From: a virus
Direction: 5' to 3' (one strand)
IMG/VR virus record: IMGVR_UViG_3300036781_000367
Span: 1 to 26,584 of that record
Length of the DNA stretch: 26,584 bases
Numbering within the stretch: the stretch's first letter is position 1; each line of letters starts with the position of its first letter. The position numbers and the translations under genes were made by a program. The notes below the pieces were generated by a model. It saw nothing but the letters and a program-made list of their open reading frames with translations, was not told the origin of the DNA and did no database searches. Below, one piece after another: positions 9,319 to 26,584 of this stretch.

Positions 9319-9404
9319 TGGGCGCGAAGCTATGGTCACCGGAAAAGGTCCGAAGCGGGCATTACGATCCGTTCGCCGCGCTGGCGCAGCAGGTGAGCGC
9401 GTGA
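9318..9404 (+). CDS. 28-aa small protein
   Basis: ATG 9318 overlaps the upstream stop (TGATG) and has a very good ribosome site (GGGAGG). It encodes MGAKLWSPEKVRSGHYDPFA followed by eight more residues, and its stop overlaps the GTG of the next gene. The strong site and tight overlaps suggest a real leader or coupling peptide; no homology is recognised. Confidence 0.4.
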   Translation: MGAKLWSPEKVRSGHYDPFAALAQQVSA

Positions 9405-10173: not shown

Positions 10174-10373
10174 GCGCGCGCCGGCCGCCTCCGACGACCT
10201 CGGACGTCGAAAACGCGCTGCGCGACGCGTCGCTCGCGGTTCGCGCAGGCCACCCGGAGGAGCCGATTACGATTTCGGCCGCCGCGCTCTGGCTGCTAAA
10301 CGAGATGATCCACGCTCAGAGCGAGCGAATCAAACGACTTAGAAACCGGCAACCCAGCAAGGCCACAAAATGA
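10170..10373 (+). CDS. Hypothetical early protein, helical
   Basis: 67 aa from ATG 10170 (ATGA). A Pro/Arg-rich start is followed by helices VENALRDASLAVRAGH and AAALWLLNEMIHAQSERI, ending in a basic tail. It is the last small gene before the Q-like protein, whose ATG overlaps its stop. Function unknown. Confidence 0.55.
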   Translation: MSARRPPPTTSDVENALRDASLAVRAGHPEEPITISAAALWLLNEMIHAQSERIKRLRNRQPSKATK

Positions 10374-11056
10374 GCGAGACCATTGAAACGTTGTTCCGGA
10401 CGCCGCAAGACGCCCTCGTTTTTGCATACAACTACTCGATGCAGCGGCAAGATCGCTCGCTGGTTGACCGGCTAGCGGCGCCGAGTCCGCGCACGGGGAA
10501 AGGACTAAGCGGTAACGACGGAGCCGGGCAGGCCGGGATGATTCGGCGCGAGCTGCAGCAGCTGAGCGAGCTGGACCGCGCTGTGCTGGCAGCGCGCTTT
10601 GCACCGAGGTCATGGCCCTGCTCATGCGCTAGCCCGTGCTGCTCGGGCCATATGCCTAATCCTGAGTATCTGGATGCGATTCGCACTCTCGAGCAGGCAG
10701 CGCTTGCACTTTTGGCGGGGCACCTTTCGAGTTATCGACTTCGCCGGCGGCTCATCGAAAAAGCGATGGGCCAAAAGATCGAGCTGAACGCGCTCGCGAA
10801 GGAGTGCGGCGTCAGCGAGAAAACTGCGGGCACCCACTGGCGAATTATCAGGGAATGGGTAGGAGGGCGGCCGAAGCCAAAACTGAACGCTGCAGCTGCG
10901 CGCACGCGAATCGTAGCTGACGGAGCTGCAGCGAGCGTTGCTGACCATGATTCTGACATTGGCGGCGGGGTGTTGACGGCGATAGACGGAATCGAGTCCC
11001 TTGCGCGCAAGCGTGCTGATGACCTGCTCTCGACGTTGCCATTTATCGATGCGTAG
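10370..11056 (+). CDS. Probable late antitermination (Q-like) regulator
   Basis: 228 aa. Residues 55-110 include LDRAVLAARFAP and a Cys cluster (SWPCSCASPCCSGH), a possible zinc site. Residues 120-172 hold a helix-turn-helix (LNALAKECGVSEKTAGTHWR, then IIREWV). The C-terminus is Ala-rich and helical. The best argument for Q function is position: the gene is last in the early rightward operon and is followed within 12 bp by a near-consensus promoter and a strong terminator, exactly the lambda Q-PR'-tR' plan. A sequence match to a named Q family cannot be claimed, and a DNA-binding activator of the late promoter is the alternative. Confidence 0.6.
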   Translation: MSETIETLFRTPQDALVFAYNYSMQRQDRSLVDRLAAPSPRTGKGLSGNDGAGQAGMIRRELQQLSELDRAVLAARFAPRSWPCSCASPCCSGHMPNPEYLDAIRTLEQAALALLAGHLSSYRLRRRLIEKAMGQKIELNALAKECGVSEKTAGTHWRIIREWVGGRPKPKLNAAAARTRIVADGAAASVADHDSDIGGGVLTAIDGIESLARKRADDLLSTLPFIDA

Positions 11057-11067
11057 TACGGATTTTC

Positions 11068-11095
11068 TTGACACTTCCATTTTGGACCGTAGAAT
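11068..11095 (+). promoter_or_regulatory. Late promoter (PR'-like)
   Basis: TTGACA (11068-11073) is a perfect -35; a 16-bp spacer separates it from TAGAAT (11090-11095), a 5/6 match to the -10. The start would be near 11102, about 30 bp before a terminator stem. No coding sequence on the plus strand begins until 11596. Confidence 0.8.
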
Positions 11096-11107
11096 AGCGC
11101 TCATTCT

Positions 11108-11126
11108 GACACTGTGAGTAAGTGTC
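11108..11126 (+). promoter_or_regulatory. Inverted repeat just after late transcription start
   Basis: GACACT (11108-11113) and AGTGTC (11121-11126) form a perfect 6-bp stem around a 7-nt loop in the first 25 nt of the late transcript. In lambda, Q loading needs a pause element at this distance; this hairpin could be part of one. The role is inferred. Confidence 0.4.
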
Positions 11127-11129
11127 TCC

Positions 11130-11164
11130 AAAGCCCCGGTTCGCTTCGCGCTCCGGGGCTTTTT
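11130..11164 (+). terminator. Strong intrinsic terminator after late promoter (tR'-like)
   Basis: AAAGCCCCGG (11130-11139) and CCGGGGCTTT (11153-11162) form a perfect 10-bp stem with a 13-nt loop, followed by a T-run. It should stop unmodified polymerase from the promoter at 11068-11095, making late expression dependent on antitermination. The AAA arm may also let it end the antisense gene at 11179. Confidence 0.85.
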
Positions 11165-11178
11165 GCTTTTCTCGATCT

Positions 11179-11412
11179 TCAGGCGAAGTGCGTCCTGACC
11201 GTCAGGCGCCAGCGAATCGCGCCTTGTGTGCCGGTGTGTTGGTGGTGGTTTTGCGCGGGAAGCGGATGAGTCTTGGTAGAGACAATGCTTTTACCGCAGC
11301 CTTCGCAGCGATAGATGCCCGAAAAAGGCGTCGGGGTTCCGGGGTGATTTATCTGGTCAAACCCGTCACTCTGGTCCTGCGCCAGGAACTGCCCATATTT
11401 GTAGTACGCCAT
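11179..11412 (-). CDS. Small zinc-ribbon-like protein, antisense cargo gene
   Basis: 77 aa on the minus strand inside the late leader. ATG 11412 is supported by AAGGAAAG upstream. The sequence MAYYKYGQFLAQDQSDGFDQ, then TPFSGIYRCEGCGKSI and PLPAQNHHQHTGTQGAIRWR, matches from memory a widespread uncharacterised bacterial family (often annotated protein L) with a CxxC and a conserved HHQH motif. The Cys pair and His cluster suggest metal binding. It is opposite to every flanking gene, with its own upstream region and the terminator at 11130-11164 downstream, the usual features of a phage moron. Cellular role unknown. Confidence 0.7.
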   Translation of the reverse strand: MAYYKYGQFLAQDQSDGFDQINHPGTPTPFSGIYRCEGCGKSIVSTKTHPLPAQNHHQHTGTQGAIRWRLTVRTHFA

Positions 11413-11497
11413 TTGACTTTCCTTTGCCTGCAGCGGCGGTTTCCGGATAAGCGCGGCAACGCTGACCGGGATTTTTATGTGCACGAGCGCGCATTCG

Positions 11498-11595: not shown

Positions 11596-11853
11596 ATGAA
11601 CAAACCGAAGTCAAAGGCCGCCGCGACCGCAGTTGCTGTCGCACTTCCGCGACTTGGCGAGACAGTCATGGTGCGCGCGCCGTATTTCGCGAAGCCGACG
11701 GTCGCGATGGTCATTAGCCTGTTCGAGGACGCGACCAACGAGATTGCCGTGCAGGCGTTTCCGTTGGGCCGCGAGTCGCTGCAGATCCCGGCGATCCCAT
11801 TCTTTGCCAAGGAACCGGACGCCGGGGTGCGCTCGGCGGCGTGGCCGGCGTAA
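11596..11853 (+). CDS. Hypothetical protein, first late gene
   Basis: 85 aa from ATG 11596 with a weak ribosome site (GGACGATAGG). After a Lys/Ala-rich start comes VALPRLGETVMVRAPYFAKP and a strand-rich middle (VAMVISLFEDATNEIAVQAF) with a C-terminal PFFAKEPDAG. It could be a small virion or assembly protein; no family is recognised. It is the first plus-strand gene after the late promoter and overlaps the next by 13 bp. Confidence 0.6.
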   Translation: MNKPKSKAAATAVAVALPRLGETVMVRAPYFAKPTVAMVISLFEDATNEIAVQAFPLGRESLQIPAIPFFAKEPDAGVRSAAWPA

Positions 11854-12518
11854 TCACGATCCGCGTTTCGTCGAACGCCAACGCCATCGCGCGCGGGCTC
11901 GACGACTTCATTCGGCGCCAGCTGCCGTTCGCGATCGCGCAGGGCGTCAATGCGACGGCTCAGCGCGTCGCGGCGGCTGAGACCGAGAACATCGTCCAGA
12001 CATTCAAGAATCCGACGCCGTTCACGCGCAAGTCGGTCGGCGTGCGCCGCGCGAAGAAAGGCTCGCCGACGGCCGTCGTCTACATGAAGGACGTCACGGC
12101 AAAGTATCTGCAGCCGTACGAGACCGGCGGCGTGCATGTGCTGTCCGGATCTGCACTGCTGAATCCGAAGGACATCGGCCTCAATCAGTATGGGCAGCTG
12201 CCCCGCAACGTGATGGCCAAGCTGCGCGGCCGCAAAGACATCTATATCGGCGTCGTCAAGACGTCTAAAGGCAGCATCAGCGGTGTGTGGCAACGCCTGG
12301 ATGTTTCTCGCAATGGTGGCGTTCGAAAGAAGCGTGTCGCACGCGGTGGTCTGTACGACAAGCACCTCGGCGCGCTCAAGCTGCTGATCCGTTTCGGTGA
12401 TGCGCTGCCGGTGAAGAAGCACCTCAACTGGGGCAAGCGCGCGAAACAGACCGTCGACCAGTGGATCGACCGAGATCTGTCAGCGGCCCTCGCAGCGGCG
12501 CGCAGGACGGCCCGGTGA
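11841..12518 (+). CDS. Minor tail protein Z-like / connector-type protein
   Basis: 225 aa from GTG 11841. The N-terminal helix ARGLDDFIRRQLPFAIAQGV with NATAQRVAAAE is the typical start of lambda gpZ and HK97 gp10-like proteins; then FKNPTPFTRKSVGVRRAKKG and strand-rich segments, with a basic C-terminus (VKKHLNWGKRAKQTVDQWID). These proteins help complete or connect the tail. The odd point is position: gpZ-like genes normally lie between capsid and tail genes, here it precedes cos and the terminase. The family call is from pattern and length, not a search. Confidence 0.6.
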   Translation: MAGVITIRVSSNANAIARGLDDFIRRQLPFAIAQGVNATAQRVAAAETENIVQTFKNPTPFTRKSVGVRRAKKGSPTAVVYMKDVTAKYLQPYETGGVHVLSGSALLNPKDIGLNQYGQLPRNVMAKLRGRKDIYIGVVKTSKGSISGVWQRLDVSRNGGVRKKRVARGGLYDKHLGALKLLIRFGDALPVKKHLNWGKRAKQTVDQWIDRDLSAALAAARRTAR

Positions 12519-12554
12519 GCTGAAGGTGGCCCGGTGGAGGGTGGCCCGGCGCGG
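12509..12554. repeat. Three GGCCCGG repeats before the terminase gene
   Basis: GGCCCGGTGAG (12509-12519), GGCCCGGTGGAG (12528-12539) and GGCCCGGCGCGG (12543-12554), about 15-19 bp apart. They straddle the end of the Z-like gene and open the gap that probably contains cos. Confidence 0.55.
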
Positions 12555-12667
12555 GCACCCCCCTACCTTACAGGGTCCTTCCGGGAAGGGGCGAAACACG
12601 CGGGCATTGCGCGCGCCCGTTTCTCCCGTTCTTTTGAGCGAAAAAAACTCGTTACACGTTACACGCT
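12519..12667. other. Non-coding gap, candidate cos packaging site
   Basis: This 149-bp gap directly precedes the small terminase subunit gene, the position of cos in lambda. It contains G/C-rich repeats, a CCTTCC-G-GGAAGG palindrome in the middle (about 12577-12590), and two tandem GTTACAC motifs (12651-12657, 12658-12664). Related motifs recur inside the next gene as GTGTAAC (12717-12723), GTTACAG (12761-12767) and ATTACAC (12776-12782). These may be terminase-binding sites. The cut position is not determined. Confidence 0.45.
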
Positions 12668-13375
12668 ATGGCGGCATCCAACGCGGCTCAAACGCAGAAG
12701 GCGTCGGGCAGAGCGGGTGTAACGCAACGCGGCGCAAAAGCTCAAGGGAAGGGCGGAAACGTTACAGCGGCCGGCATTACACCGGTCGGCACTGACGGGC
12801 TGATCGGCAAGGCTGCGCTTTGCGAGGCGCTCGGCTGGACGCGCCCGAAGCTCGACCGGCGCCTCGACAGCGATGAGAACTTCCCGATTGCTCAACGCGG
12901 CACGCGCGCTGGTGGCTGGGCGTTCGATCTCGCCGCGGTGCGCGCCTATCTCGACGGCGGTTCGCGGAAGCCGGTGGCGAGGTCTCGCGAGCCGATCGAC
13001 CAGCGCAGCGACCCGCAGCCATCGTCCAACCCATACCCGGGCGCGAAGTACTCGGTCGTGCCGCCGCCGGGCGTGCCGCCTATCGAGCACACCGGCGAAC
13101 AGAGCGCGCGGCAGCGCCGCGACGCAGTGCAGGCAGAGATCCTTGAGGACAAGCTGCGGCGCGATCGCGGCGATCTCGTGCAGGCAGAGGTCATGCGCCA
13201 GGTGATCACGAAGATGCTGGTGCACCTCGGCAAAGGCATGGACCGGCTGACCGACCAGGTGATTGAAAAGCTCGGGCTGCCCGAGGAGAACTCGGACGCG
13301 ATTCGTGAGCTGACCGACGACCTTCGTACGACGATGGTCGACGAGCTGAAAGTGCTGCTGGGCCCCGATGCTTGA
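12668..13375 (+). CDS. Terminase small subunit (Nu1-like)
   Basis: 235 aa from ATG 12668. After a flexible basic N-terminus of about 40 residues, residues 45-95 form a winged helix (GKAALCEALGWTRPKLDRRL, then FPIAQRGTRAGGWAFDLAAV), as in lambda gpNu1, which recognises cos. A proline-rich linker (about 96-145) and a helical C-terminal part (EILEDKLRRDRGDLVQAEVM...) for large-subunit binding follow. No ribosome site is obvious. It overlaps the large subunit by 8 bp. Together they cut and package concatemers at cos. Confidence 0.85.
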   Translation: MAASNAAQTQKASGRAGVTQRGAKAQGKGGNVTAAGITPVGTDGLIGKAALCEALGWTRPKLDRRLDSDENFPIAQRGTRAGGWAFDLAAVRAYLDGGSRKPVARSREPIDQRSDPQPSSNPYPGAKYSVVPPPGVPPIEHTGEQSARQRRDAVQAEILEDKLRRDRGDLVQAEVMRQVITKMLVHLGKGMDRLTDQVIEKLGLPEENSDAIRELTDDLRTTMVDELKVLLGPDA

Positions 13376-15470
13376 AAACGCCTACGCTGACGCGTACCAG
13401 ATCGTGCGCGAGGCGCTCGCGGCCCTCGTGCCGCCGGCGCGCGAGACCGTCGCGCAGTACGCGTCCCTCCACCGTCGGCTGACGAACCAGGGCGGTGGCT
13501 ACGTGGGCCGGTGGCACCACGAGAAGGCGCCGTATCTCGTGGGGCCGATGGAAACGCTCACGCGGCTGGACTATCTGACGACGGTGGTCGTCGGCCCAGG
13601 ACAAAGCGGAAAGACCGAAGTCGGTCAGAATTGGTTGCTCAAGTCGGTGGCAAACGATCCGGGCGACTTCCTCTGGTACATGCAGACGGATCCGGGCCTC
13701 GAGGCCTTCGTCAAGAGCCGGATCAACACGCAGATCGACGGCCATCCAGAAATGGCCATGAGCCTCGGGTCGAAGCCCGTCGACGATTCGCTGCACTTCA
13801 AGCGTTTCGCTAGCATGCGCGTCGAGTTCTTGTCCGCGAACGAGAACAACCTGATCAACAAGTCGGCGCCGCGGATTGTCGCCGACGAGGTCGACGCGTA
13901 TCCCGAAGGCCTCGGCGACATCAAGGCGCTGCTCGACGTGCGCCGCCAGACGTTCGGGCGCCAGTCGATGCTGCTTGCGATGAGCCACCCGGACCGGGCG
14001 CGCGGACTGAACCCCGAACGCGACTGGACATCCGGCGTCATGGCGCTGTACGGCGACAGCGATCGCCGCGTCTGGTACTGGCCATGCCCGCATTGCGGCG
14101 CGTGGTCGAGCCCGGTGCCGATTGCCGCGCGGTTCATGCCGCTGCATTACGAGGACGGCTGGAGTCTCGACGAGATCGAGGTGAAGGCGCGGCTCATCTG
14201 TCCAGTGAACGGTTGTCTGATCGAGGACCGGCACCGTCGCGCGATGAATCTGGCCGCATATCGATCCCCGTTCGGTGGGTGGGTCGGAGACGGTCAGGAG
14301 ATCTCGCAGGAAGGCGTTGTGAGCGGCGAGCTGGTCGCGCGCAAGTCGGCCGGATTCTGGATCGTCGGCGCGATGTCGCCGTTCATCCTCGGCGGCATTG
14401 GGGGGCTTGCCCGGGCGAAGGCGAAAGCCGAGCGCGAGTTCGAAGTTGATGGCGACGACAAAACGCTGAAGCAGGTCGTCGTCAAGCAGTGGGGTTTCCT
14501 GTACGCGCCGAAGCGCGGCGTCGGTTCAATCGACGCCAACGTCTTGGCCGATCGCGCGGAAGCAGACCTGAAGCTCGCTGTGGTGCCGGAGGGTGTCCGT
14601 TTCCTGACTGGAGGCTGCGACGCCAACGGCGGCCGCTTTGAGTGGCTCGTGCGCGGCTGGGGAGTCGACGGCGAGAGCTGGGTGATCGAGAAGGGGCGCA
14701 TCAACGGCGATCCGGCGACGGCGCCGGAAGACTGGGACCTGCTGCTCGAGGTGATCCAGCGCACGTATCCGCTCGCGGACGGGAGCGGGCGCCGCATGCC
14801 GATACGAGCGTTCGGGTTCGACAGCGGCGGCGAGGCGGGTGTCACGCAGCAGGCCTACGCCGCGTGGCACCGCTGGCGCAAGCAGGACGGCATCGTGCGG
14901 CTCTTCGGCAAGATCGCTGGCCGCGACGCCTGGAGTGTGCTGCCAACGAAAGGCGCGAGCGCGTTGACCGCCCAGCGGCTGCTGGTGACGTATCCGGACA
15001 CCGCGCGCAAATCGAACCGCGCAGCCGCCGGCGGCACGGTGCCTGTCGCGCGGTTCAACCCGAACAGCTTCAAGGATGACCTCGCCGGACAGCTGCAGAA
15101 GGCTGATCTCGGCAGCTGGTACGTGCATTTCCCCCATGCGCTCCGGTCTCCCGAAGAACCTCACGTCTGGTTCGAGCAGCTGACGGCCGAGATCCGGCTA
15201 AAGAACGGGCGATGGGAAAAGGCCGTGAAGTCGCGCCGCAATGAGGCGCTCGATTTGATGGTGCTCACGCACGTTATGGCGCACCTGCACGGCCTCTCGC
15301 AGATTGACTGGACGAGGCCGCCGTCATTCGCTGCACCGTGGGACAAAAACACGACGCTCGTGGCGGCCGCTGCAGCCAAGGCTGCGCCGCCGCCGACGCC
15401 GAGCGCGACGCCGACATCTGACGGCACGGCGCCGAAGAACCCGAAATCCGCTGTTCACCGCTTCCGCTAA
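13368..15470 (+). CDS. Terminase large subunit (lambda GpA family)
   Basis: 700 aa, slightly longer than lambda gpA (641). N-terminal ATPase: Walker A GPGQSGKT (76-83) and Walker B VADEVD (171-176). A zinc-ribbon-like set follows, CPHC (240-243) and CPVNGC (278-283). The C-terminal RNase H-like nuclease has TGGCDANGG, RAFGFDSGGE and ALDLMVL, with acidic residues at the expected places. It is the motor that hydrolyses ATP to drive DNA into the prohead and the nuclease that cuts cos. The last 30 residues are Ala/Pro/Thr-rich. Confidence 0.97.
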   Translation: MLENAYADAYQIVREALAALVPPARETVAQYASLHRRLTNQGGGYVGRWHHEKAPYLVGPMETLTRLDYLTTVVVGPGQSGKTEVGQNWLLKSVANDPGDFLWYMQTDPGLEAFVKSRINTQIDGHPEMAMSLGSKPVDDSLHFKRFASMRVEFLSANENNLINKSAPRIVADEVDAYPEGLGDIKALLDVRRQTFGRQSMLLAMSHPDRARGLNPERDWTSGVMALYGDSDRRVWYWPCPHCGAWSSPVPIAARFMPLHYEDGWSLDEIEVKARLICPVNGCLIEDRHRRAMNLAAYRSPFGGWVGDGQEISQEGVVSGELVARKSAGFWIVGAMSPFILGGIGGLARAKAKAEREFEVDGDDKTLKQVVVKQWGFLYAPKRGVGSIDANVLADRAEADLKLAVVPEGVRFLTGGCDANGGRFEWLVRGWGVDGESWVIEKGRINGDPATAPEDWDLLLEVIQRTYPLADGSGRRMPIRAFGFDSGGEAGVTQQAYAAWHRWRKQDGIVRLFGKIAGRDAWSVLPTKGASALTAQRLLVTYPDTARKSNRAAAGGTVPVARFNPNSFKDDLAGQLQKADLGSWYVHFPHALRSPEEPHVWFEQLTAEIRLKNGRWEKAVKSRRNEALDLMVLTHVMAHLHGLSQIDWTRPPSFAAPWDKNTTLVAAAAAKAAPPPTPSATPTSDGTAPKNPKSAVHRFR

Positions 15471-15474
15471 TCCT

Positions 15475-15744
15475 ATGGCCACAACCGATATCAGCTCGCC
15501 GTATTACGGCATGACTGATCAGCAGCTCATGGCCGCGATCAGCGCCGCGCAGCAGGCCTATATCGACCTGCGGACGGGAAAGAAGGTGGTCAACGTTTCG
15601 TATGCGCAGGGTGGCGGCTCGCGCAGCGCGACGTTCCAGCAGACGGACATGGCGAACCTGCGGCTGTTGATCGCCGAGTTGCAGCAGGCGCTCAACCCTG
15701 GTGTGCGCATCAAGCGCCGCCGCCCGATGACGCCGTACTACTGA
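15475..15744 (+). CDS. Head-tail joining protein gpW-like
   Basis: 89 aa from ATG 15475. Helix MTDQQLMAAISAAQQAYIDL, the strand VVNVSYAQGGGSRSATFQQT, and a final helix (DMANLRLLIAELQQALN) with a basic tail reproduce the gpW fold. gpW closes the portal and allows neck assembly. It lies between terminase and portal as in lambda. Confidence 0.88.
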   Translation: MATTDISSPYYGMTDQQLMAAISAAQQAYIDLRTGKKVVNVSYAQGGGSRSATFQQTDMANLRLLIAELQQALNPGVRIKRRRPMTPYY

Positions 15745-15745
15745 C

Positions 15746-17398
15746 ATGGGCAACGAACTCAGTATCGTCGATGCCCAGGGCAATCCGATCCGGCGCGCGC
15801 GCGGCGAATATCCCAACGGCATGCCGCTGACGACCGGCGTCGGCCGCTCGTTCTTTCCGTACCAGGCAGCCGCGTGGCAGACCCAGGAGATGGGCAACTG
15901 GTTGCCATGGATCAGGTCACCCGACGCGGAGATCACGCAGTTCCGCGATCGCATGGTCGCGCGGTCGCGCGATCAGGTGCGCAACGACGGCCGCTCGAGC
16001 GGCGCGATTACCCGGATTCTCGATAACACGGTGGGTGCGTCGCTGCGGTTGTCCGCGATGCCGGACTACCGCGCGCTGCGGCTCATCAGCGGCGCGGCCT
16101 TCGATATTCAATGGGCGAAAGAATTTGCGAGCGCGGTCGAGGCGCGCTGGCGCATGTTCTCCAACGACCTGAACCATTACAACGACGTCTCACGTCAGCT
16201 GACGGTTTCGCAGCAGCTGCGCCTAGCGCTGCGCCACAAGCTGATCGACGGCGAGGATCTTATCGTCAACCACTGGATGCCAGAGCGCATCGGCCGCGGC
16301 GCCGCGCAGTATGCCACCGCGTTCCTCATCGTGGATCCGGACCGACTGTCGAACCCCATGCAGATGGTCGACACGAAGCATCTGCGCGGAGGCGTCGAAA
16401 TCGACGACGTCGGCGTGCCGCTCGCCTACCACATCCGCAAAGCGCACCAGAACGATTGGTACAACGGCGTCGAGAGCATGGAGTGGGAGCGCGTGATCGC
16501 GGAGGACGATGACGGCTGGCGACGCGTGATCCATGACTTCGAGCGCGATCGAGCGGGCCAGAACCGTGGCATCGGCGTGTTCGTTCCGGTCCTTGCGCAC
16601 GCAAAGATGCTCGCGCGCTACTACGGCATCGAGCTGCAGGCTGCGGCCCTCGCCGCGTCGATCGGCACGTACATCACCAGCCCATACGACCCGTCCGAAG
16701 TGCAGGATGCAATCGGCGGAGACGACGAGCTCAAGTTCTATCAGGGCCTGCGCAAGGAATGGAACGATGAGCGGCCGGCGATGTTCAATGGGGTGCACGT
16801 GCCGGCGCTGGCCCCGGGTGAGGACATCAAGGCACTCACCTCTGATCACCCTCATAACGGTTTTACCGAGTTCGTGCACGAGATGCAGGGATGCGTCGCC
16901 TCCGCGCTCGGGGTCTCCATGGAGCAGGTCACGCAGGACTGGACGCGCACGACGTACTCGAGCGCCCGGGCCGGGCTGCTGGAAAGCTGGAAGACCCTCG
17001 TGCGCCGGCGCCTGGAATTTTCGGGCGGCACCGCCACACCGATGTATGCGGTGTGGCTTCGCGAATGCATGGAGAACGACGAGCTGCCGCTCCCGAACGG
17101 CGCGCCCGATTTCATTGAGGCCGCAACCGCGTATGCCGGCTGCTCGTGGCTCGGGCCCGCACGCGGCTGGGTCGACCCGGTGAAAGAACCGCAAGGCTCG
17201 ATCCTGAAGATGGATGCGTCGCTCACCACCCTGAAGCAGGAAGCGGCCGAGCAAGGCTCCGACTGGGAAGAACTGCTCGACCAGCGGCAGATCGAGATCG
17301 AAGCGTTCAAGGCGCGAAACATCCCGCTGCCCGAATGGGGCGGCCAGGAGGTGGCGACGCGCACCGACGAACCCCCCGAACAACCGAAGGCAGCATGA
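15746..17398 (+). CDS. Portal protein (lambda gpB family)
   Basis: 550 aa, close to lambda gpB (533). RDRMVARSRDQVRNDGRSSG is typical of the family, followed by the DNTVGASLRL and wing/crown regions, and GCVASALGVSMEQVTQDWTR in the stem. The ring of portal subunits forms the DNA gate at one head vertex and the terminase dock. It starts 1 bp after gpW. Its C-terminus is charged and overlaps the protease gene by 4 bp. Confidence 0.96.
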   Translation: MGNELSIVDAQGNPIRRARGEYPNGMPLTTGVGRSFFPYQAAAWQTQEMGNWLPWIRSPDAEITQFRDRMVARSRDQVRNDGRSSGAITRILDNTVGASLRLSAMPDYRALRLISGAAFDIQWAKEFASAVEARWRMFSNDLNHYNDVSRQLTVSQQLRLALRHKLIDGEDLIVNHWMPERIGRGAAQYATAFLIVDPDRLSNPMQMVDTKHLRGGVEIDDVGVPLAYHIRKAHQNDWYNGVESMEWERVIAEDDDGWRRVIHDFERDRAGQNRGIGVFVPVLAHAKMLARYYGIELQAAALAASIGTYITSPYDPSEVQDAIGGDDELKFYQGLRKEWNDERPAMFNGVHVPALAPGEDIKALTSDHPHNGFTEFVHEMQGCVASALGVSMEQVTQDWTRTTYSSARAGLLESWKTLVRRRLEFSGGTATPMYAVWLRECMENDELPLPNGAPDFIEAATAYAGCSWLGPARGWVDPVKEPQGSILKMDASLTTLKQEAAEQGSDWEELLDQRQIEIEAFKARNIPLPEWGGQEVATRTDEPPEQPKAA

Positions 17399-18276
17399 AC
17401 AACTACGCGCATCTCGCGACCCGGCTGTTCAACGTGCCGATCGCGATTCTTCCGCAGAAGGCCGAAATCGTGATGGCGGCGCTCGCCGACCGGTTCGGCA
17501 TCGCACAGCTGTTCCGGGACGACGGCACAGCGCTCGCGCTGTCTGGCGGCGCAGCCAGTGCCTTCCTGGAGATGCAGGAGGACGGCCCGGCTCAGTACAA
17601 GCCATATGACGTCGCCGAGGGAGTTGCACGCATCCCGATCGAAGGGACGCTCGTGCACAAGCTCGGGACTCTGCACCCGTATTCGGGAATGACTGGCTAC
17701 GACGGCATTCGCGCGCTGATGAGCCTCGCACTCGACGACGATGATGTGCGAGCGATCATGCTCGATATCGATTCGCCCGGCGGTGAAGTCTCCGGATGCT
17801 TCGACCTCGTCGACGCGATCTATGGCGCGCGCGGCCACAAGCCCATCTGGTCGGTTCTGACCGAAAGCGCGTATTCCGCTGGATACGCGATCGCGAGCGC
17901 CGCGGACCGGGTCATCGTGCCGCGTACCGGCGGCACCGGCAGCGTGGGCGTCATCTGCATGCACGTCGACATGTCCCAGGCCCTCTCGAAGGCGGGCATT
18001 GACGTCACGCTCATTCATTACGGCGCGCGCAAGGCGGACGGCAACGAGTTCAGTCCGTTGGCGAAGGATGCGCTCGCACGCTTTCAGAAGGACGTGAACG
18101 CGATGGGCGAGATCTTCGTGAAGACCGTCGCTCGCAATCGTGCGCTCAAGACGGCCGAGGTGCGCGACACCGAAGCCGGCACCTTTCTCGGCGCCGCCGG
18201 CGTCGACATCGGCTTCGCCGACGACGTCATGTCGCCGGACGAGGCGTTCGCCTCCCTGCTCGACGAGCTGGGCTGA
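17395..18276 (+). CDS. Prohead maturation protease, S49/SppA family
   Basis: 293 aa from ATG 17395 (ATGA with the portal). The S49 core spans residues of about 75-240: DIDSPGGEVSGCFDL (oxyanion region), TESAYSAGYAIASAAD with the probable nucleophile Ser161, and GARKADGNEFSPL with the probable general base Lys213. It corresponds to lambda gpC, which cleaves scaffold and itself in the prohead. Unlike gpC it is not fused to the scaffold; the next gene holds the scaffold-like charged region. Confidence 0.95.
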   Translation: MNNYAHLATRLFNVPIAILPQKAEIVMAALADRFGIAQLFRDDGTALALSGGAASAFLEMQEDGPAQYKPYDVAEGVARIPIEGTLVHKLGTLHPYSGMTGYDGIRALMSLALDDDDVRAIMLDIDSPGGEVSGCFDLVDAIYGARGHKPIWSVLTESAYSAGYAIASAADRVIVPRTGGTGSVGVICMHVDMSQALSKAGIDVTLIHYGARKADGNEFSPLAKDALARFQKDVNAMGEIFVKTVARNRALKTAEVRDTEAGTFLGAAGVDIGFADDVMSPDEAFASLLDELG

Positions 18277-18302
18277 TCCATCCCACCATCAGGGTAAATT
18301 CA

Positions 18303-18992
18303 ATGAGCACCACGTTACGCAACCTCATGTCACGAGGTGGGTTGAGCTTCGCCCATCTCAGCCGCGGCGCGCGCGCCGAAGACCGTCCGGACGATGACGA
18401 CGACAGCCGCAAGGGCAAGAAAGGCAAGCGCGCCGATGACGACGGTCCGGACGAGCAGCAGGACCGCGATAACGGTGACAGCAAGAAGGGCAAGCGCGCC
18501 GAGGGCGGCGACTCGGATGACGACGACAACGACGACCCGGACGACGACGTCGACGACGAAGACGATCCGGACGACGACAGCGGAAAGGGCAAGCGCGGCA
18601 AGAAGGGCAAGCGCGCGGCGGACGAGAAGGACGACGAACGCGCCGAGGACGATGACGACGATGAAGAGGAGATGCGCGGCAAAAGCGCTTCTGCCCGGGC
18701 GCGTCGGCGCGAACGGGCGCGCTGCGCCGCGATCTTCGCCAGCAAGGGCGCCGGCCGCAACCCCGAGCTCGCCTGCAACCTCGCCTTCGAAACGACGATG
18801 ACCCGTAGCGAGGCGATCGCCGTGCTCAACAAAACGCAGGGCAGCGTCGGCGGTAGCCGCTCGTCGCGCACGAACCCGAACCTCGGCGCCGGCGGCAGTG
18901 CCGCGAGCATGACATCGGAGCAGGCGGCTTCGGCCAGCTGGGACGTTGCATTCCAGCGCGCGGGTTCGAAGAATCGCGGCAGCCGCCACTGA
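18303..18992 (+). CDS. Highly charged repetitive protein, probable scaffold or protease partner
   Basis: 229 aa from ATG 18303 with AGGG upstream. Residues of about 25-135 alternate Asp/Glu blocks with basic KGKKGKRA-type modules (KGKKGKRA, KKGKRA, KGKRGKKGKRA), an unusual polyampholyte. Residues 145-190 form a folded domain (ARCAAIFASKGAGRNPELAC, then MTRSEAIAVLNKT) that I recall at the C-termini of phage S49 proteases. The tail is Ser/Gly-rich. Position between protease and decoration protein suggests a scaffold that is degraded on maturation, or a split-off protease C-terminus. Confidence 0.75.
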   Translation: MSTTLRNLMSRGGLSFAHLSRGARAEDRPDDDDDSRKGKKGKRADDDGPDEQQDRDNGDSKKGKRAEGGDSDDDDNDDPDDDVDDEDDPDDDSGKGKRGKKGKRAADEKDDERAEDDDDDEEEMRGKSASARARRRERARCAAIFASKGAGRNPELACNLAFETTMTRSEAIAVLNKTQGSVGGSRSSRTNPNLGAGGSAASMTSEQAASASWDVAFQRAGSKNRGSRH

Positions 18993-19052
18993 CCGGATCG
19001 CCCGCGCACACGCAGGCGCCCCCCGCCCCTTCATTCTCCTCAGGACTGAATC

Positions 19053-19727
19053 ATGACCAACCCTCCCGTACTCAACCAGACGCCGCTCATCGAGCAATGG
19101 CACGCTGGCGGATTCCTGGTTTCCGAAGCCCGCGGCCACCGCTCGCGTGATCCCGTGACCATGGGCGGCGCGACGAAGATCTATCCGGGCACCGTGCTCG
19201 GCGCGCAGACCGGTGGCGTGGCAGCCGCATGGCCCGGCAACGCGACGCAGGAAAACACCAACACCGGCAACGGCACGATCGCAATGGCCGGCACGCCCGT
19301 CGTCACCGGCGGCCAGCTCGGCGTGTATTCGGCGGTCGCGACCGATGCGACGCACTTCGCTGTCACCGACCCGTACGGCAACTCGCTCGGCGCGGCGACC
19401 GCAGGCAGCGCGTTCAGCAACCAGATCGCATTCACGATCACGGCCGGCGCCACGGCATTCGTCCAGGGCGACGAGTTCTCGATCGAGGTGGAGGCGCTCA
19501 GCGCGGCGTACGTTCCGCTGAATCCGTCGGCGAGCGATGGTTCGCAGACCGCTGCGGGCATCGCGTTCGGCTTCTACGACGCGACGAACAACGACGTGTC
19601 CGGCCTGGCGGTTACGCGGGAATGTGAGGTCAACGGTTTCGAGCTCGTCTGGCCGAGCGGCGCAACCGCCTCGCAGATCGCGGCGGCGACCGCGCAGCTC
19701 ACGGCGCTCGGCATCATCACCCGCTGA
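19053..19727 (+). CDS. Head decoration protein gpD-like, enlarged by an inserted domain
   Basis: 224 aa, about twice lambda gpD (110). Residues 1-50 (GFLVSEARGHRSRDPVTMGG, KIYPGTVLGA) look like a gpD start, residues 165-224 (AGIAFGFYDATNN, REVEVNG-like stretch, FELVWPSGAT) like its end. Between lies a Thr/Ala/Gly-rich domain with strands ending TAFVQGDEFSIEVE. Trimers of gpD stabilise the mature shell; the insert would project outward and might bind surfaces. It precedes the terminator at 19775-19802. Confidence 0.85.
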   Translation: MTNPPVLNQTPLIEQWHAGGFLVSEARGHRSRDPVTMGGATKIYPGTVLGAQTGGVAAAWPGNATQENTNTGNGTIAMAGTPVVTGGQLGVYSAVATDATHFAVTDPYGNSLGAATAGSAFSNQIAFTITAGATAFVQGDEFSIEVEALSAAYVPLNPSASDGSQTAAGIAFGFYDATNNDVSGLAVTRECEVNGFELVWPSGATASQIAAATAQLTALGIITR

Positions 19728-19774
19728 TCGCGAGGACGATCCTCCGCGTTCTCTAAACCCTGTTTCAAGTCCTT

Positions 19775-19802
19775 ATGGCCGCGCGAGCGGCCATTATTTT
19801 TT
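19775..19802 (+). terminator. Intrinsic terminator/hairpin upstream of capsid gene
   Basis: ATGGCCGC (19775-19782), GCGA tetraloop, GCGGCCAT (19787-19794), then TATTTTTT. A perfect 8-bp stem with a strong U-tract inside the late operon. It could lower downstream transcription when antitermination is off, or protect the 3' end of an upstream message. Confidence 0.75.
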
Positions 19803-19815
19803 CTGGAGCCAAATA

Positions 19816-20847
19816 ATGGCCAGCTTGGACGTATTCCATCAGGATCCCTTCACGACCCTCCAGTTGACGGCGGCGGTCGACAAGTATCCTTTCCAGCCGA
19901 CGGGGCTCGGCGACCTTGACCTGTTCGAGCCGGAACCGATCCGCACCACGGCGCTCGCGGTCGAGCAGCGTCAGGGCAAACTCGTCATCATCCCGACGTC
20001 GCCGCGCGGCGCCGAAGGCACACAGCGTACGACCGAAAAGCGGCAGGCTCGCTACTTCGACGTGCCGCGCCTGATGCATGACGATACGATCTACGCGAAC
20101 GAGATCCAGAGCATTCGTCAGTTCGGTACCGAATCCGAACTCATGCAGGTGCAGGTCGAAGTTGCCCGGCGCATGAATGGCCCGACTGGCATCCTGCGCA
20201 ATATCGAGTACACGTGGGAATTCCACCGCCTCGCCGCCGTGCAAGGCAAGCTGATCGATGCTGACGGCGACATCCTGTACGACTGGTTCCAGGAGTTCGG
20301 CATCACGCCGGCGGGGGCCGTCGAATTCGACTTGGCGGCGAACACGGAGTACTCGCTGCGCCCGATCATCAATAGGATCCGCCGGACCATGGCGCGCAAG
20401 GCGCAGGGCTCGTTCACGCCCAGCACGCGCGTCTATGCGCTGTGCGGCGACAGCTTTTACGACTCGTTCGTGAATCACCAGGACGTGATCCGCACGTTCG
20501 TCAACTGGTCGGCCGCCGCGGATCTCCGTGACGACAAGCAGGGCGGCGCGTTCGACGCCTTCCCGTTTGCCGGCGTCACCTGGATGAACTATCGCGGTTC
20601 GGACGACAACTCGACGATCAAGATTCCGGACGACGAAGTGCATTTCTTCCCCGTCGGCGCGCCAGGCATCTTCCGCGTCGCGTACGCGCCGGGTGAATCG
20701 TTCGAATGGGTCAACACGCCTGGCAAGCCGACGTATGTGATCCCGATCTTCGATCGCGACCGCAACAGCTGGTGGAAGATGGAGGCGTACAGCTATCCGC
20801 TTCACATCTGCACCCGTCCGGAAGTGCTGCAGAAGGGCACCGCCTGA
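19816..20847 (+). CDS. Major capsid protein (lambda gpE family)
   Basis: 343 aa, matching lambda gpE (341). ATG 19816 with GGAG 9 bases upstream. Family features include FHQDPFTTLQLTAAVDK near the start, PFQPTGLGDLDLFEP, IYANEIQSIRQFG, EYTWEFHRLAAVQGKLIDAD, and the tail (TYVIPIFDRDRNSWWKMEAY). It forms the HK97-fold shell built on the scaffold. Confidence 0.97.
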   Translation: MASLDVFHQDPFTTLQLTAAVDKYPFQPTGLGDLDLFEPEPIRTTALAVEQRQGKLVIIPTSPRGAEGTQRTTEKRQARYFDVPRLMHDDTIYANEIQSIRQFGTESELMQVQVEVARRMNGPTGILRNIEYTWEFHRLAAVQGKLIDADGDILYDWFQEFGITPAGAVEFDLAANTEYSLRPIINRIRRTMARKAQGSFTPSTRVYALCGDSFYDSFVNHQDVIRTFVNWSAAADLRDDKQGGAFDAFPFAGVTWMNYRGSDDNSTIKIPDDEVHFFPVGAPGIFRVAYAPGESFEWVNTPGKPTYVIPIFDRDRNSWWKMEAYSYPLHICTRPEVLQKGTA

Positions 20848-20849
20848 GC

Positions 20850-21164
20850 ATGATCGACTTCGACGGGACGCTGAATGCGGCGATCAGCGCGACGCTCGGC
20901 GATGAAATGCCGGTGACGTACGTACGCGGTGGCGTCAGCAAGCCCGTGCTCGGCATCTTCACGCTGATCACCGACGAGACCCTGGGCGAAGACGGTACGC
21001 CGGATGCGAACATCACCGTCGCCACGCTCGGGCTGCAGGTGTCGCAGCTCCCGTCGCCTCCTCAACAGAGCGACACCGCGACCGTCAACGGCGCGAACTA
21101 CGTTGTGAAAGACGCGTCGTTCGACGGTCTCGGCTGGGCTTACCTCGATCTCGGTGCGCAATGA
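20850..21164 (+). CDS. Head-tail connector, lambda gpFII-like
   Basis: 104 aa from ATG 20850 right after the capsid stop. It has a beta-barrel look: TYVRGGVSKPVLGIFTLITD, ITVATLGLQVSQLP, and TATVNGANYVVKDASFDGLG, where VNG-x-x-Y-V-V-KD followed by an aromatic strand is typical of head-completion proteins. It joins neck and tail. The stop overlaps the next ATG. Confidence 0.78.
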   Translation: MIDFDGTLNAAISATLGDEMPVTYVRGGVSKPVLGIFTLITDETLGEDGTPDANITVATLGLQVSQLPSPPQQSDTATVNGANYVVKDASFDGLGWAYLDLGAQ

Positions 21165-21715
21165 CGACCTCCCGGGACCTGCGCGAGATCGCCGTGCAGG
21201 GGTTGCTGGTGTCGGGCGCGACGGCGGCCGGCAGCAATGTTTTCTCGCCGCGCACGTGGTCAACATGGAACCACACGTATCCGGTGCTGCTCGTCCAGAC
21301 CCCCGACGAGGATGGGCAGAGTTGGGGCCCGCACGGGGCGCCCGCGTTCACTGTGACGACGACGCTGCGGGTGTCGGCTCGCGCACAGGCGGCGGCGCTG
21401 ACGAACGATCAGGCGGCGCCGGTCGTCGAGGAGCAGCTCGAACTGCTGCGCGAGCAGATCAAGGCGGCGCTCGTGAACTACCCGCCGTTGATGTCGCTGC
21501 TTCAGCAATACCCGTTCTTCCGCTCAACCCTCAACGTCTCGGGCGAAGGCTCCGAACCGATCGGGCAGATGGTGCTCGATCTCGGCCTCGAATTCGTACA
21601 GGGGCCGCATGACTTCTATCAGCCGGCGGCCATTCCGCTTCAAGGTGTCGATCTCACGGTGCAGGAACTGGACGGCACGACCGCGCCGGGCCTGACGATC
21701 AACCTCCCTCAGTAG
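21161..21715 (+). CDS. Tail completion/terminator-like protein
   Basis: 184 aa (ATGA). RDLREIAVQGLLVSGATAAG, NHTYPVLLVQTPDED and VTTTLRVSARAQA are the strand-helix plan of phage tail-terminator and minor tail proteins (gpU-like); C-terminal half has LGLEFVQGPHDFYQP and a strand. It probably caps the tail tube at the head side. Family assignment by position and fold pattern. Confidence 0.65.
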   Translation: MTTSRDLREIAVQGLLVSGATAAGSNVFSPRTWSTWNHTYPVLLVQTPDEDGQSWGPHGAPAFTVTTTLRVSARAQAAALTNDQAAPVVEEQLELLREQIKAALVNYPPLMSLLQQYPFFRSTLNVSGEGSEPIGQMVLDLGLEFVQGPHDFYQPAAIPLQGVDLTVQELDGTTAPGLTINLPQ

Positions 21716-21724
21716 GGGCATCCC

Positions 21725-22000
21725 ATGTTTGTGAAACCCGCACCGGGCGTGCTGCTGCGCGACCCGGTCACGAAGCGTCTTCTCTCGGCCGCGCCGATGG
21801 AAGGAGTGGCAAAGCCGGTGACCGTGCTGCCCCAGGAGGGCATGGAGGTCAGTGACTTCGACCGCTTCTGGCTGCGCCGCATCCGCGATCGCGATGCTGT
21901 GAAGGTCGAGCCGAAGTCGTCAGCAAAGCAGGCCAATACAGCCACTGTCGCCGAAGCCCTTCAGGCGCCGGCGGTTTCGGTGGAACAGGGAGCCAAGTAA
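21725..22000 (+). CDS. DUF2635-like small tail protein
   Basis: 91 aa, ATG 21725 with GGGG upstream. MFVKPAPGVLLRDPVTKRLL, then VTVLPQEGMEVSDFDRFWLR, fit DUF2635, which directly precedes the sheath in Mu-like phages. The C-terminal 30 residues are Ala-rich and flexible. Function in tail assembly unknown. It ends 1 base before the sheath ATG. Confidence 0.85.
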   Translation: MFVKPAPGVLLRDPVTKRLLSAAPMEGVAKPVTVLPQEGMEVSDFDRFWLRRIRDRDAVKVEPKSSAKQANTATVAEALQAPAVSVEQGAK

Positions 22001-23509
22001 ATGGGCGACATTTCGTTTCCGAATCTTCCCCAGGACATTCGCGTCCCGCTGTTTTATGCGGACATCGACCCCTCCAACGCGAACACCGGTCAGCAGAGCC
22101 AGCGCGCGCTGATCATCGGGCAGATGAACGCGGGCGCCTCCGGCACGCCGGATTTGCCGCAGATCTGCCAGGGCGTGTCGGCGACAAAGTCACTGGCGGG
22201 ACAGGGCTCAATGCTCGCGCTGATGACAGCTGCTTATCGCAAGCGCGATACGTTCGGCGAGGTCTGGCTTCTTCCGCTGGCGGACGATGCCGAGGGCGCG
22301 GCGGCAGCCGGTAGCTTGAGCTTCACGAGTGCGCCGACCGGCACAGGCGTCCTGTCGCTGTATGTCGGCGGTCAACTCGTGTCGCTCGCAGTATCGGCAT
22401 CGATGTCCGCAACGCAAGTGGCATCCGCGCTCGTCGCGCAAATGGCGACACTGCCGGATCTGCCGGTGACGGCGGCGATCGACGGCACGACGGCCACGAA
22501 GGTCAATCTGGCCGCGAAGAACAAAGGCCTTGCGGGCAACGATATCGACCTGCAGCTTAACTATGGCGGCACGCTGGCCGGAGAGGCGATGCCCGCCGGG
22601 CTCGCGGTTTCCATCACCGCGATGACCGGCGGCGCGACGAATCCGTCGACGCTGGCAGCCGCACTCGCGAACCTCGGCGACCAGGAATTCGATTTCATCG
22701 CATTCCCGTACACGGATTCGACGTCGCTCGATGCGATGAAGGCTTTCCTGAGCACCCAAACCGGGCGCTGGAGCTGGGCCGAGCAGCTCTATGGTGGTGC
22801 GTTCGCCGCGTATCGTGGCACGCTGAGCGGCCTGACAACGTTCGGTGTCACGCGTAACGATGAGCACATGTCGATTACCGGTTTCAACGGCTCGCCGACA
22901 CCTGCCTGGGTCATCGCCGCGGATCTCACGGCAGCGGTTGCGGTGTCGGTGCGCGCGGATCCCGCGCTGCCATTGCAGACCGTGACGCTGGCCACCATGC
23001 AGGCGCCTCCGCTCGCGGATCGCTTTGCGCTGACCGACCGCAACACGCTGCTGTACGACGGCATCTCGACGTTCGACGTGGCCGACGACGGCACGATCTC
23101 GATCGAAAACCAGATCACCACATACCAGAAGAACAGCTTCGGCGACGCGGACGACAGCTATCTCGAGGTCGAGACGATGTTCACGCTGACGTATGTCCTG
23201 CGGCAACTCAGGTCGGTGGTCACGACGAAGTACGCACGCAAGAAGCTCGCCGCCGATGGCACGCGCGTCGTGCCGGGAACGAACGTCGTCACGCCAAGCA
23301 TGATCAAGGCCGACCTGATCGCGCAGTACCAGACGATGGAGGAAGACGGCTACGTGCAGGGCAGCGCAGTGTTCGCGCAGGGCCTCATCGTGCAGCAGAA
23401 CTCCACAAATCCGAATCGCGTCGACGTTCTCTACCCGGCAGTGCTGATCGATCAGCTGCGGGTCTTCGCGCTGCTGATGCAGTTCTCCAACATCGTGCCG
23501 ACGACGTAG
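22001..23509 (+). CDS. Tail sheath protein (Mu gpL-like)
   Basis: 502 aa. ISFPNLPQDIRVPLFYADID is a typical sheath start; QRALIIGQMNAGASG, FGEVWLLPLADD, FDFIAFPYTD and RWSWAEQLYGGAFAAYRGTL are conserved core segments; the C-terminus (LIDQLRVFALLMQF) takes part in the sheath's contractile mesh. The sheath wraps the tube and contracts at infection, so the phage is a myovirus. Residues of about 110-200 form a Thr/Ala/Gly-rich insert. Confidence 0.95.
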   Translation: MGDISFPNLPQDIRVPLFYADIDPSNANTGQQSQRALIIGQMNAGASGTPDLPQICQGVSATKSLAGQGSMLALMTAAYRKRDTFGEVWLLPLADDAEGAAAAGSLSFTSAPTGTGVLSLYVGGQLVSLAVSASMSATQVASALVAQMATLPDLPVTAAIDGTTATKVNLAAKNKGLAGNDIDLQLNYGGTLAGEAMPAGLAVSITAMTGGATNPSTLAAALANLGDQEFDFIAFPYTDSTSLDAMKAFLSTQTGRWSWAEQLYGGAFAAYRGTLSGLTTFGVTRNDEHMSITGFNGSPTPAWVIAADLTAAVAVSVRADPALPLQTVTLATMQAPPLADRFALTDRNTLLYDGISTFDVADDGTISIENQITTYQKNSFGDADDSYLEVETMFTLTYVLRQLRSVVTTKYARKKLAADGTRVVPGTNVVTPSMIKADLIAQYQTMEEDGYVQGSAVFAQGLIVQQNSTNPNRVDVLYPAVLIDQLRVFALLMQFSNIVPTT

Positions 23510-23534
23510 AGCTGACGCGTCGCGCGCACCGCAT

Positions 23535-23559
23535 AAGCCGCCTTCGGGCGGCTTTTTTT
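23535..23559 (+). terminator. Intrinsic terminator between sheath and tube genes
   Basis: AAGCCGCC (23535-23542), TTCG loop, GGCGGCTT (23547-23554), followed by a run of seven Ts. A textbook stem with a stable UUCG tetraloop, in the middle of the tail operon. Confidence 0.85.
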
Positions 23560-23581
23560 ATTCCTGAGTGGAGCATCCGCA

Positions 23582-23971
23582 ATGCCTTCTCCGACTGGCC
23601 TTCTCGCCGGCACCGCATCGGTGTCCGTCGACGGCACCACGTACATGGTGACCGCCGACTTCAAGTACAAACCCGCGAACGTCAAGCGCGAGACGCTGGC
23701 GGGCATGGACAGCATCCACGGCTGGAAGGAGACGCCGTCTGCTCCCTACATCGCAATGAATCTGCGCGACTGGGGCGGACTGACGGTGGCCGACTTCAAC
23801 ACGATGACCAACGTCACGGTCGTCGCCGAGCTGGCGAACGGCAAGACGATCATCGGCCGCTCCATGTGGACGGTCGAGGAGCAGGAGGTCGACTCCACGG
23901 ACGCGAAGTTTGACGTCCGATTCGAGGGCCCGACGGGGTCCGTTACCGAAACCACTTCGAGCGGAACATGA
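23582..23971 (+). CDS. Tail tube protein (Mu gpM-like)
   Basis: 129 aa from ATG 23582 with GGAG upstream. The PF10618-type pattern is visible: GTASVSVDGTTYMVTADFKY, RETLAGMDSIHGWKETPSAP, and GRSMWTVEEQEVDSTDAKFD, VRFEG. Hexameric rings stack to form the tube inside the sheath. It is coupled to the chaperone gene by an ATGA overlap. Confidence 0.93.
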   Translation: MPSPTGLLAGTASVSVDGTTYMVTADFKYKPANVKRETLAGMDSIHGWKETPSAPYIAMNLRDWGGLTVADFNTMTNVTVVAELANGKTIIGRSMWTVEEQEVDSTDAKFDVRFEGPTGSVTETTSSGT

Positions 23972-24312
23972 ACGAAGACGAACAGAAAATCATCCGGCTT
24001 AAGAAGCCGATCACGCTAAAGGGCGACAGCGTGACGTACGACACGATCACGCTGCGCGAACCCACGGTCGACGAGCTCGACCGTAGCGCGCAAGTGCAGG
24101 GCTCGGCCTATGCGTCGAACGCTGCCCTCATCGCAATGGTCGCTGGCGTCCCCGTGGCCGTCGCCCGGCAACTGGGCAAGGCCAACTACGAGGAGGCGAC
24201 GGCGTTCCTCTCGGGTTTTACCTGGACGCCCCCGTCGTCTGGCGTGACCTCGGGGACCGACGCGCTGACGTCACCTACTTCTTCCGGTGGGGACCCGACG
24301 CTGTCGGCCTGA
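23968..24312 (+). CDS. Tail assembly chaperone, short form (G-like)
   Basis: 114 aa in the normal frame. RLKKPITLKGDSVTYDTITL, REPTVDELDRSA, then a helical region (AALIAMVAGVPVAVARQL), are typical of Mu gp41-like tail chaperones between tube and tape measure. The last 30 residues (Ser/Thr/Pro/Gly-rich) look unnatural and share their DNA with the better conserved -1 frame. It binds the tape measure during tube assembly. Confidence 0.88.
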   Translation: MNEDEQKIIRLKKPITLKGDSVTYDTITLREPTVDELDRSAQVQGSAYASNAALIAMVAGVPVAVARQLGKANYEEATAFLSGFTWTPPSSGVTSGTDALTSPTSSGGDPTLSA

Positions 24313-24374
24313 TGAAGCTGAGCAGGTTTCAGTATTGGCATGATCAGGCCGCGCGCCTGAAACGAAGCACCTGA
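23968..24374 (+). CDS. Tail assembly chaperone, -1 frameshift product (GT-like)
   Basis: At 24213-24219 the heptamer G-GGT-TTT has the X-XXY-YYZ form in the gene's frame. A -1 slip after codon 84 leads to a frame reading YLDAPVVWRDLGDRRADVTY, FFRWGPDAVGLMKLSRFQYW and HDQAARLKRST to a stop at 24372-24374, a total of 135 aa. The extension has the aromatic F-x-W and W-x-x-x-A features of tail-chaperone T-domains, and reads as protein while the normal frame does not. This is the lambda G/GT arrangement; the ratio of forms would matter for assembly. Confidence 0.8.
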
Positions 24375-24383
24375 GGCTATCAG

Positions 24384-26261: not shown

Positions 26262-26584
26262 GTGTAGCGACCCTAGCGAACTTTGCGGGCAGCATCGGCG
26301 GCCTCGCGTCTGCCGCGTCGCAGGTCGCGTCGATCCTGAACGGGCCCGGCGCAGGCACGTGGTGGGGTTCATTGCGACAGGCGTCATTCGGTGGCGTGCC
26401 GTTCGCTGTGCTTGAAAACCGCACGCGTTTCGGGAGCCGCAACGTAGTCCACCGCTATCCGTTTCGCGATGATGCATATATCGAGCCCCTCGGCAAACTG
26501 CCACGGCAGTACGAGCTGATGGGCTTCCTGATAGAGAGCAGCAAGGTATATGGCGGGGGCCCGGTGATCGCGCAGCGCGACGCG
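26258..26584 (+). CDS. DNA circularisation / baseplate protein, Mu gpN-like (3' end outside window)
   Basis: ATG 26258 overlaps the tape-measure stop; 109 codons remain open to the window edge. WWGSLRQASFGGVPFAVLEN, RNVVHRYPFRDDAYIEPLG and YELMGFLIE match the DNA_circ_N domain: the SFRGVPF-like motif, the HxYPxRD segment and the strand GFLI. In Mu-like phages this gpN-type protein is a tail/baseplate component despite its historical name. Only the N-terminal part is visible. Confidence 0.9.
   Translation, partial: MSVATLANFAGSIGGLASAASQVASILNGPGAGTWWGSLRQASFGGVPFAVLENRTRFGSRNVVHRYPFRDDAYIEPLGKLPRQYELMGFLIESSKVYGGGPVIAQRDA

Follow-up and report, generated by a model that had tools for sequence, protein, structure and literature searches.

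Locus and phage setting

The DNA analysed here comes from a single IMG/VR virus record, IMGVR_UViG_3300036781_000367, and the whole stretch of 26,584 nt is referred to below as the window. A plus-strand gene of this window (10370..11056) encodes a protein of 228 amino acids, which is predicted to be an AlpA/Q-type antiterminator on the basis of its homologues, an AlphaFold model and a match to AlpA. A promoter, a short leader and an intrinsic terminator follow the gene. On the 5' side of this group lie a CI-like repressor gene on the minus strand (3720-4433), an O-like replication gene (6908-8305) and a gene of HNH-like type (9332-9847). Past the terminator, the plus strand carries a predicted late operon (11596..26584), with genes for a minor tail protein, the small and large terminase subunits, portal, protease and major head protein, as well as for the tail sheath, tail tube and tape measure. 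The phage is thus temperate and has a contractile tail (a myovirus), and the putative switch sits where the early region gives way to the late operon, in the position that Q, PR' and tR' occupy in lambda. Judging from the closest relatives of the 228-aa protein, the host probably belongs to the Burkholderiales.

When the promoter region is read directly, it comprises a -35 element TTGACA (11068..11073) and a -10 element TAGAAT (11090..11095), both of which are conserved in homologous loci and are separated by a spacer of 16 nt (11074..11089). The predicted transcription start, at about position 11103, falls within a conserved initially transcribed segment, CATTCTGACACTGTGAGTAAGTGTCTCC (11102..11129). 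This segment opens with CATTCT (11102-11107, approximately -1 to +5), a possible -10-like pause element carrying A2 and T6, and RNA folding places a small hairpin of 6 bp (GACACT/AGTGTC, 11108-11113/11121-11126) immediately after it. The tR'-like terminator (11130..11164) consists of a 10-bp stem, AAAGCCCCGG/CCGGGGCTTT (11130-11139/11153-11162), and a U tract; its stem begins about 27 nt after the predicted start, and the terminated RNA would measure about 62 nt. An earlier note on this DNA, made from the sequence alone, had described precisely this order of promoter, small hairpin and terminator 3' of the 228-aa gene, and had recognized in it the layout of a lambda-like late switch. Both descriptions agree with what is found here, where a Q-type gene, a late promoter and a terminator are followed by terminase, head and tail genes. 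Searches of the window for Rfam families and for tRNA genes gave no match in either case.

Several other open reading frames in the vicinity of these elements deserve mention. One of 101 aa (11179-11484, minus strand) is located past the terminator and ahead of the late genes, is oriented against late transcription, and matches phrog_15514, a family of unknown function, with an E-value of 4.7e-17; it is possibly an extra gene expressed in lysogeny. Two more minus-strand frames, 4480-5262 (260 aa) and 5281-6003 (240 aa), adjoin the CI-like repressor, and a search for PHROG matches at E 0.01 returned none for either of them.

The protein family and its predicted fold

The most conserved stretch of the protein comprises residues 42-58, TGKGLSGNDGAGQAGMI (10493..10543), with a conservation of 0.86 in the family alignment as compared with 0.41-0.66 in the rest of the protein. 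It is followed by a CxCxxxCC cluster formed by C84, C86, C90 and C91 (residues 84-91, 10619..10642), which has a short strand on either side in the model and is possibly a zinc knuckle, and by a helix-turn-helix at residues 138-165 (10781..10864), suggested by weak matches to helix-turn-helix and sigma region-4 profiles and by two helices of the model (residues 139-146 and 150-165). The helix-turn-helix-like segment and the cysteine cluster named in the earlier note are therefore both present. Across the family, TGKGLSGNDGAGQAGM is almost invariant and the CxCxxxCC cluster nearly so, while the recognition helix is variable and ranks among the least conserved parts of the alignment.

Relatives of the protein occur in five phage records, all without a functional name: Bordetella PHB09, Burkholderia Bcep176 (gp2, locus L063), Achromobacter CF418P1, Shewanella QDWS and a 47,902-base Hujiaoplasma record, whose match is the same as that of Shewanella QDWS. 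They were also found in 111 IMG/VR stretches, 80 of which were kept for analysis, and at 28 genome loci, mostly of Paraburkholderia but also of Achromobacter, Bordetella and others. An Edwardsiella phage gave a remote match at 25-27% identity, with no detectable promoter-leader-terminator module in the stretch examined. Neither the 228-aa protein nor 50 of its relatives could be assigned to a convincing family, the former in Pfam, PHROG and NCBIfam, and only weak helix-turn-helix or sigma region-4 scores appeared for any of them. Profile and single-sequence searches for a link to any known antiterminator likewise returned none, and no description of the family was found in the open-licence literature that was searched.

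The relation to lambda Q merits separate consideration, since the earlier note had called the arrangement lambda-like and had been unable to place the protein in a known Q family. The resemblance to lambda holds for gene order (Q, PR', tR', late genes) and, in general terms, for a protein of about 200 aa with cysteines and a helix-turn-helix (partly PMC6606751). It does not extend to the sequence, as profile comparison with lambda Q by hhalign gives a probability of 0.3%; lambda Q relatives in IMG/VR were nearly identical to one another and thus of no use for a profile. As to the fold, the lambda Q structure 4mo1 does not appear among the matches listed by Foldseek and VIA-align, although this listing does not decide against such a fold. 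In addition, no match to Phage_antitermQ (PF06530) at E 0.1 was found for 51 members of the family, within the best 25 of 35 families listed, and such a match was likewise absent in four host genomes. By its sequence, then, the protein belongs to neither the lambda Q nor the Phage_antitermQ family. The lambda leader measures about 194 nt, whereas that of the window would measure about 62 nt and has no obvious -35-like second element. The 'antiterminator Q' of VarioGold (134 aa, assigned to PF06530 by HHpred; PMC9658991) was considered as a possible counterpart and set aside, as its length and Pfam family, compared by description, differ from those found here.

An AlphaFold2 model built from an alignment of 48 family sequences reached a pLDDT of 84.4 and a pTM of 0.78. 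Its best matches among solved structures are the AlpA-loaded and AlpA-loading complexes of Pseudomonas aeruginosa (7xya and 7xyb; PMC7969949, PMC9371919), with Foldseek E-values of 2e-3 and 4e-3 at a probability of 1.00, and with VIA-align Z scores of 13.8 and 13.2 over 146 aligned residues (model residues 11-224). The next unrelated chain reaches Z 5.8; the weaker similarity to 21Q (6p19_Q), with Z 4.4 over 100 residues, lies within the background and does not decide for or against a 21Q fold. Searches of PDB chains by profile and by single sequence do not list 7xya or 7xyb up to E 10, so that AlpA is alike in predicted fold and unlike in the absence of detectable sequence homology. The protein probably shares the AlpA fold, although a fold match alone is no proof of function. 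The match spans the N-terminal part of the model as well as the helix-turn-helix, which in AlpA also lies on the C-terminal side. The ring by which AlpA and 21Q block terminator hairpins within the RNA exit channel is made up of this N-terminal part (PMC9371919, PMC6606751). In the predicted AlpA-like fold, the best-conserved motif of the family falls in the N-terminal part, and residues 42-58 are accordingly proposed, from their position in this fold rather than by mapping, to be the corresponding ring segment. The suggestion of the earlier note that the protein may represent a different Q lineage thus gains substance, insofar as the model predicts a nozzle protein of the AlpA/21Q type.

Conservation of the gene-module pair

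A scan of 6 kb for promoters retrieved one site where 0.8 were expected, and terminator-like sites in the same scan numbered 11 against 5.6 expected. Promoter matches of such quality thus arise about as often as they are observed, and the promoter alone proves nothing; on this count, the arrangement might be an ordinary terminator behind a gene, accompanied by a fortuitous promoter-like sequence. Such a coincidence is refuted by the comparison of homologous loci and retains a negligible probability. Promoter-terminator pairs, defined by a terminator located 15-48 nt after the promoter at the end of the gene, were found in 56 of 93 non-redundant loci, as compared with 9 of 744 control windows taken elsewhere in these loci and with none of 279 shuffles. 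When 53 modules (promoter, leader and terminator) were combined into a profile, the module was detected downstream of the gene and on the gene's strand in 109 of 113 homologous loci, and upstream in none. The module lies within 200 nt of the gene in 78 of these loci and at 0.3-2.5 kb in the other 31, where further genes intervene; these were mostly outside the training set and were mostly recovered with E-values of 1e-8 to 1e-19, a few matches being weak (for instance L109, E 0.004). Among the four loci without a module, the contigs of L038 and L035 stop shortly 3' of the gene, and L049, though part of the training set, has a diverged and shorter leader. The pairing also holds when the search starts from the DNA: querying IMG/VR with two leader motifs retrieved 25 viral contigs, 21 of them already known as protein matches, and the gene was present in all 25, including the four that were checked additionally. 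The leader motif itself occurs once in the window, against zero expected occurrences.

Part of the module is nearly constant in geometry and part of it is free in sequence. Almost all lineages keep the terminator at a similar distance, mostly 30-39 nt after the -10 element, but freely replace its sequence. The spacers, of 16-18 nt, differ by lineage and yet share one dyad axis, situated 7 bp upstream of the -10 element, as illustrated by TTTCGACA/TGTCGAAA, TTGGGA/TCCCAA, TCTGCGG/CCGCAGA and TGCGGG/CCCGCA. In 36 spacer clusters, facing bases are complementary in 43% of cases, as compared with 29 +/- 2% when halves are swapped (z 6.7), and the dyad signal is near zero at most other axes; per-sequence shuffles of the symmetry agree with this result (4.06 versus 1.71 +/- 0.21). 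The dyad is found in most of the family and is degenerate in the window and in its closest subfamily. By analogy with known systems, the spacer is proposed to hold a protein-binding element equivalent to a QBE or ABE. Recognition helix and spacer co-vary (partial correlation 0.17, permutation p 0.004); since the remaining protein correlates with the spacer no less well (0.24), this co-variation lends weak support.

A helix-turn-helix domain and a two-fold-symmetric site overlapping a promoter would also suit a dimeric regulator, and the protein might accordingly be an ordinary activator or repressor acting on the dyad between -35 and -10, with the terminator as an attenuator or by-product. Such a regulator would leave unexplained why the terminator is kept at a nearly fixed distance while its sequence is freely replaced, and also why the predicted fold matches AlpA over its full length, outside the helix-turn-helix; we regard it as improbable.

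Downstream of the promoter, the initially transcribed region is conserved around a core GATAC, which reads GACAC in the subfamily of the window. In the leaders, hexamers of the canonical -10-like A2/T6 form show no enrichment (64 of 73, versus 62.8 +/- 2.7 in shuffles), and such a pause element is accordingly not claimed for the family as a whole; in most lineages, the conserved motif with the GATAC core is no such element.

The leader RNA of the window (11103-11166) folds at -30.8 kcal/mol, as compared with -15.7 +/- 2.5 for shuffles (z -6.0). The small hairpin to which the earlier note had drawn attention is indeed present at 11108-11126 and is perfect throughout the window's subfamily, but outside this subfamily it occurs in other registers or is missing, and it is consequently not counted as a defining part of the module. 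As a conserved RNA structure the hairpin was rejected, given its varying register and the modest excess of leader structure over shuffles in the family as a whole (12.8 versus 11.0 +/- 0.26). The strong conservation of the leader within the subfamily and its stable folding would, on the other hand, be expected of a small-RNA gene, in which promoter and terminator delimit a regulatory RNA of about 62 nt whose synthesis is controlled by the neighbouring protein. A precedent can be seen in IsrK of Gifsy-1, a prophage sRNA with two transcript isoforms (PMC4825925). However, leader sequence and hairpin differ between subfamilies, the features in common being the promoter, the early transcribed DNA and the terminator, and virion genes come next in the window as well as in the annotated relatives. 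This renders a small-RNA gene very improbable as the principal explanation, even though production of such an RNA would be compatible with antitermination.

A proposed AlpA-type late switch

The preferred reading is that the locus constitutes the late-gene switch of a temperate Burkholderiales myovirus, served by an AlpA-like nozzle antiterminator rather than by a lambda Q protein, and we assign it a probability of roughly 0.88. A PR'-tR'-type switch with an AlpA-like protein is very probable and is the simplest reading of the observations, which are the DNA elements, the pairing of gene and module, the spacer symmetry in the family, the position of the late genes and a predicted fold like that of AlpA. 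Antitermination, which the earlier note had predicted from the layout, is supported by analogy: relatives keep gene and module together in more than 100 loci and in both search directions, and the predicted fold resembles that of a proven antiterminator. The replication gene upstream and the packaging and virion genes downstream also count in its favour. On the other side, searches gave no sequence-level link to a known antiterminator, the start site is a predicted one, the dyad of the window is degenerate and the pause hexamer is unenriched, and the model derives from 48 sequences, its AlpA match reaching a Foldseek E-value of only 2e-3.

In the switch as proposed, RNA polymerase would start from the promoter at 11068-11095, at about 11103, and, in the absence of the phage protein, would stop at the terminator (11130-11164). 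When present, the protein encoded at 10370-11056 would bind the element between -35 and -10 by means of its helix-turn-helix and load onto a polymerase held up while transcribing the first bases of the leader. The conserved N-terminal ring segment would then enter the RNA exit channel and narrow it, preventing the formation of terminator hairpins, so that the terminase, head and tail genes could be transcribed. DNA binding, pausing, loading and read-through are modelled here on AlpA and 21Q, whose binding elements are likewise located between the -35 and -10 elements (PMC6606751, PMC7969949).

With AlpA, the locus shares the position of this putative element, a short leader and an intrinsic terminator that begins 26-54 nt after the start; the AlpA-controlled terminator of PA0807 begins 26 nt after the start (PMC7969949), as compared with about 27 nt here. 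Unlike AlpA, the present family would control phage late genes. The AlpA site is asymmetric (GGGACGN5GGTA), in contrast to the symmetric spacer site found here, and the CxCxxxCC cluster may set the family apart from AlpA, with which it was compared by overall fold. With 21Q (6p19, PMC6606751), the locus shares the geometry of the late promoter and a putative binding element with two subsites between -35 and -10; these subsites are direct repeats in 21Q and form an inverted repeat in the present family. Lambda Q, 21Q and AlpA all require a canonical -10-like pause hexamer. The proven hexamer of AlpA, CACGAT, has a counterpart in only some leaders of the present family, and the CATTCT of the window occupies the same position.

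The kind of system is therefore already known, while the lineage is undescribed in the libraries and open-licence literature searched, and it differs from the known cases in the symmetric site, the cysteine cluster and the non-canonical early motif. A further proposal goes beyond this, namely that the proteins of this large unannotated family load two at a time, in a symmetric arrangement, on an inverted-repeat site straddling the spacer, and are captured by way of the GATAC-core element instead of a canonical -10-like sigma pause, in a pathway distinct from those of lambda Q, 21Q and AlpA; we put it forward tentatively and consider the odds to be somewhat against it. The switch reading would provide a likely function for a family that goes by the name 'hypothetical' in phages of Burkholderia, Bordetella, Achromobacter and Shewanella, and would explain how the late genes of these phages are probably switched on. 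In the literature searched, the AlpA fold is represented by one Pseudomonas cell-death regulator, and the present results suggest that it may belong to a widespread phage lineage. The approximately 36 distinct natural spacer sites, together with their proteins, make the rule of specificity and loading directly testable.

Finally, the surroundings of the module vary among relatives. In 21 loci (for instance L004, L060 and L085), the gene's stop codon TGA forms part of the TTGA in the -35 element, so that coding and promoter sequences overlap unusually closely. In others, 0.3-2.5 kb separate gene and module (L013, L015, L017, L020-L024, L033, L052, L056, L073 and L095), and this junction may be a hot spot at which additional genes are inserted. 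In PHB09, where the module adjoins the gene, module and terminase are separated by a BrnT toxin gene, a minus-strand neighbour and a Rha gene. Many relatives carry tRNA genes (Gly-TCC, Met-CAT) immediately 3' of the late terminator (L039, 3697-3770; L040, 3698-3771 and 3916-3990; L053, 2929-3080; L055, 3764-3838; L080, 3663-3736; L104, 6764-6838; L007, 3806-3881), and these tRNAs would be the first products of an antiterminated operon.
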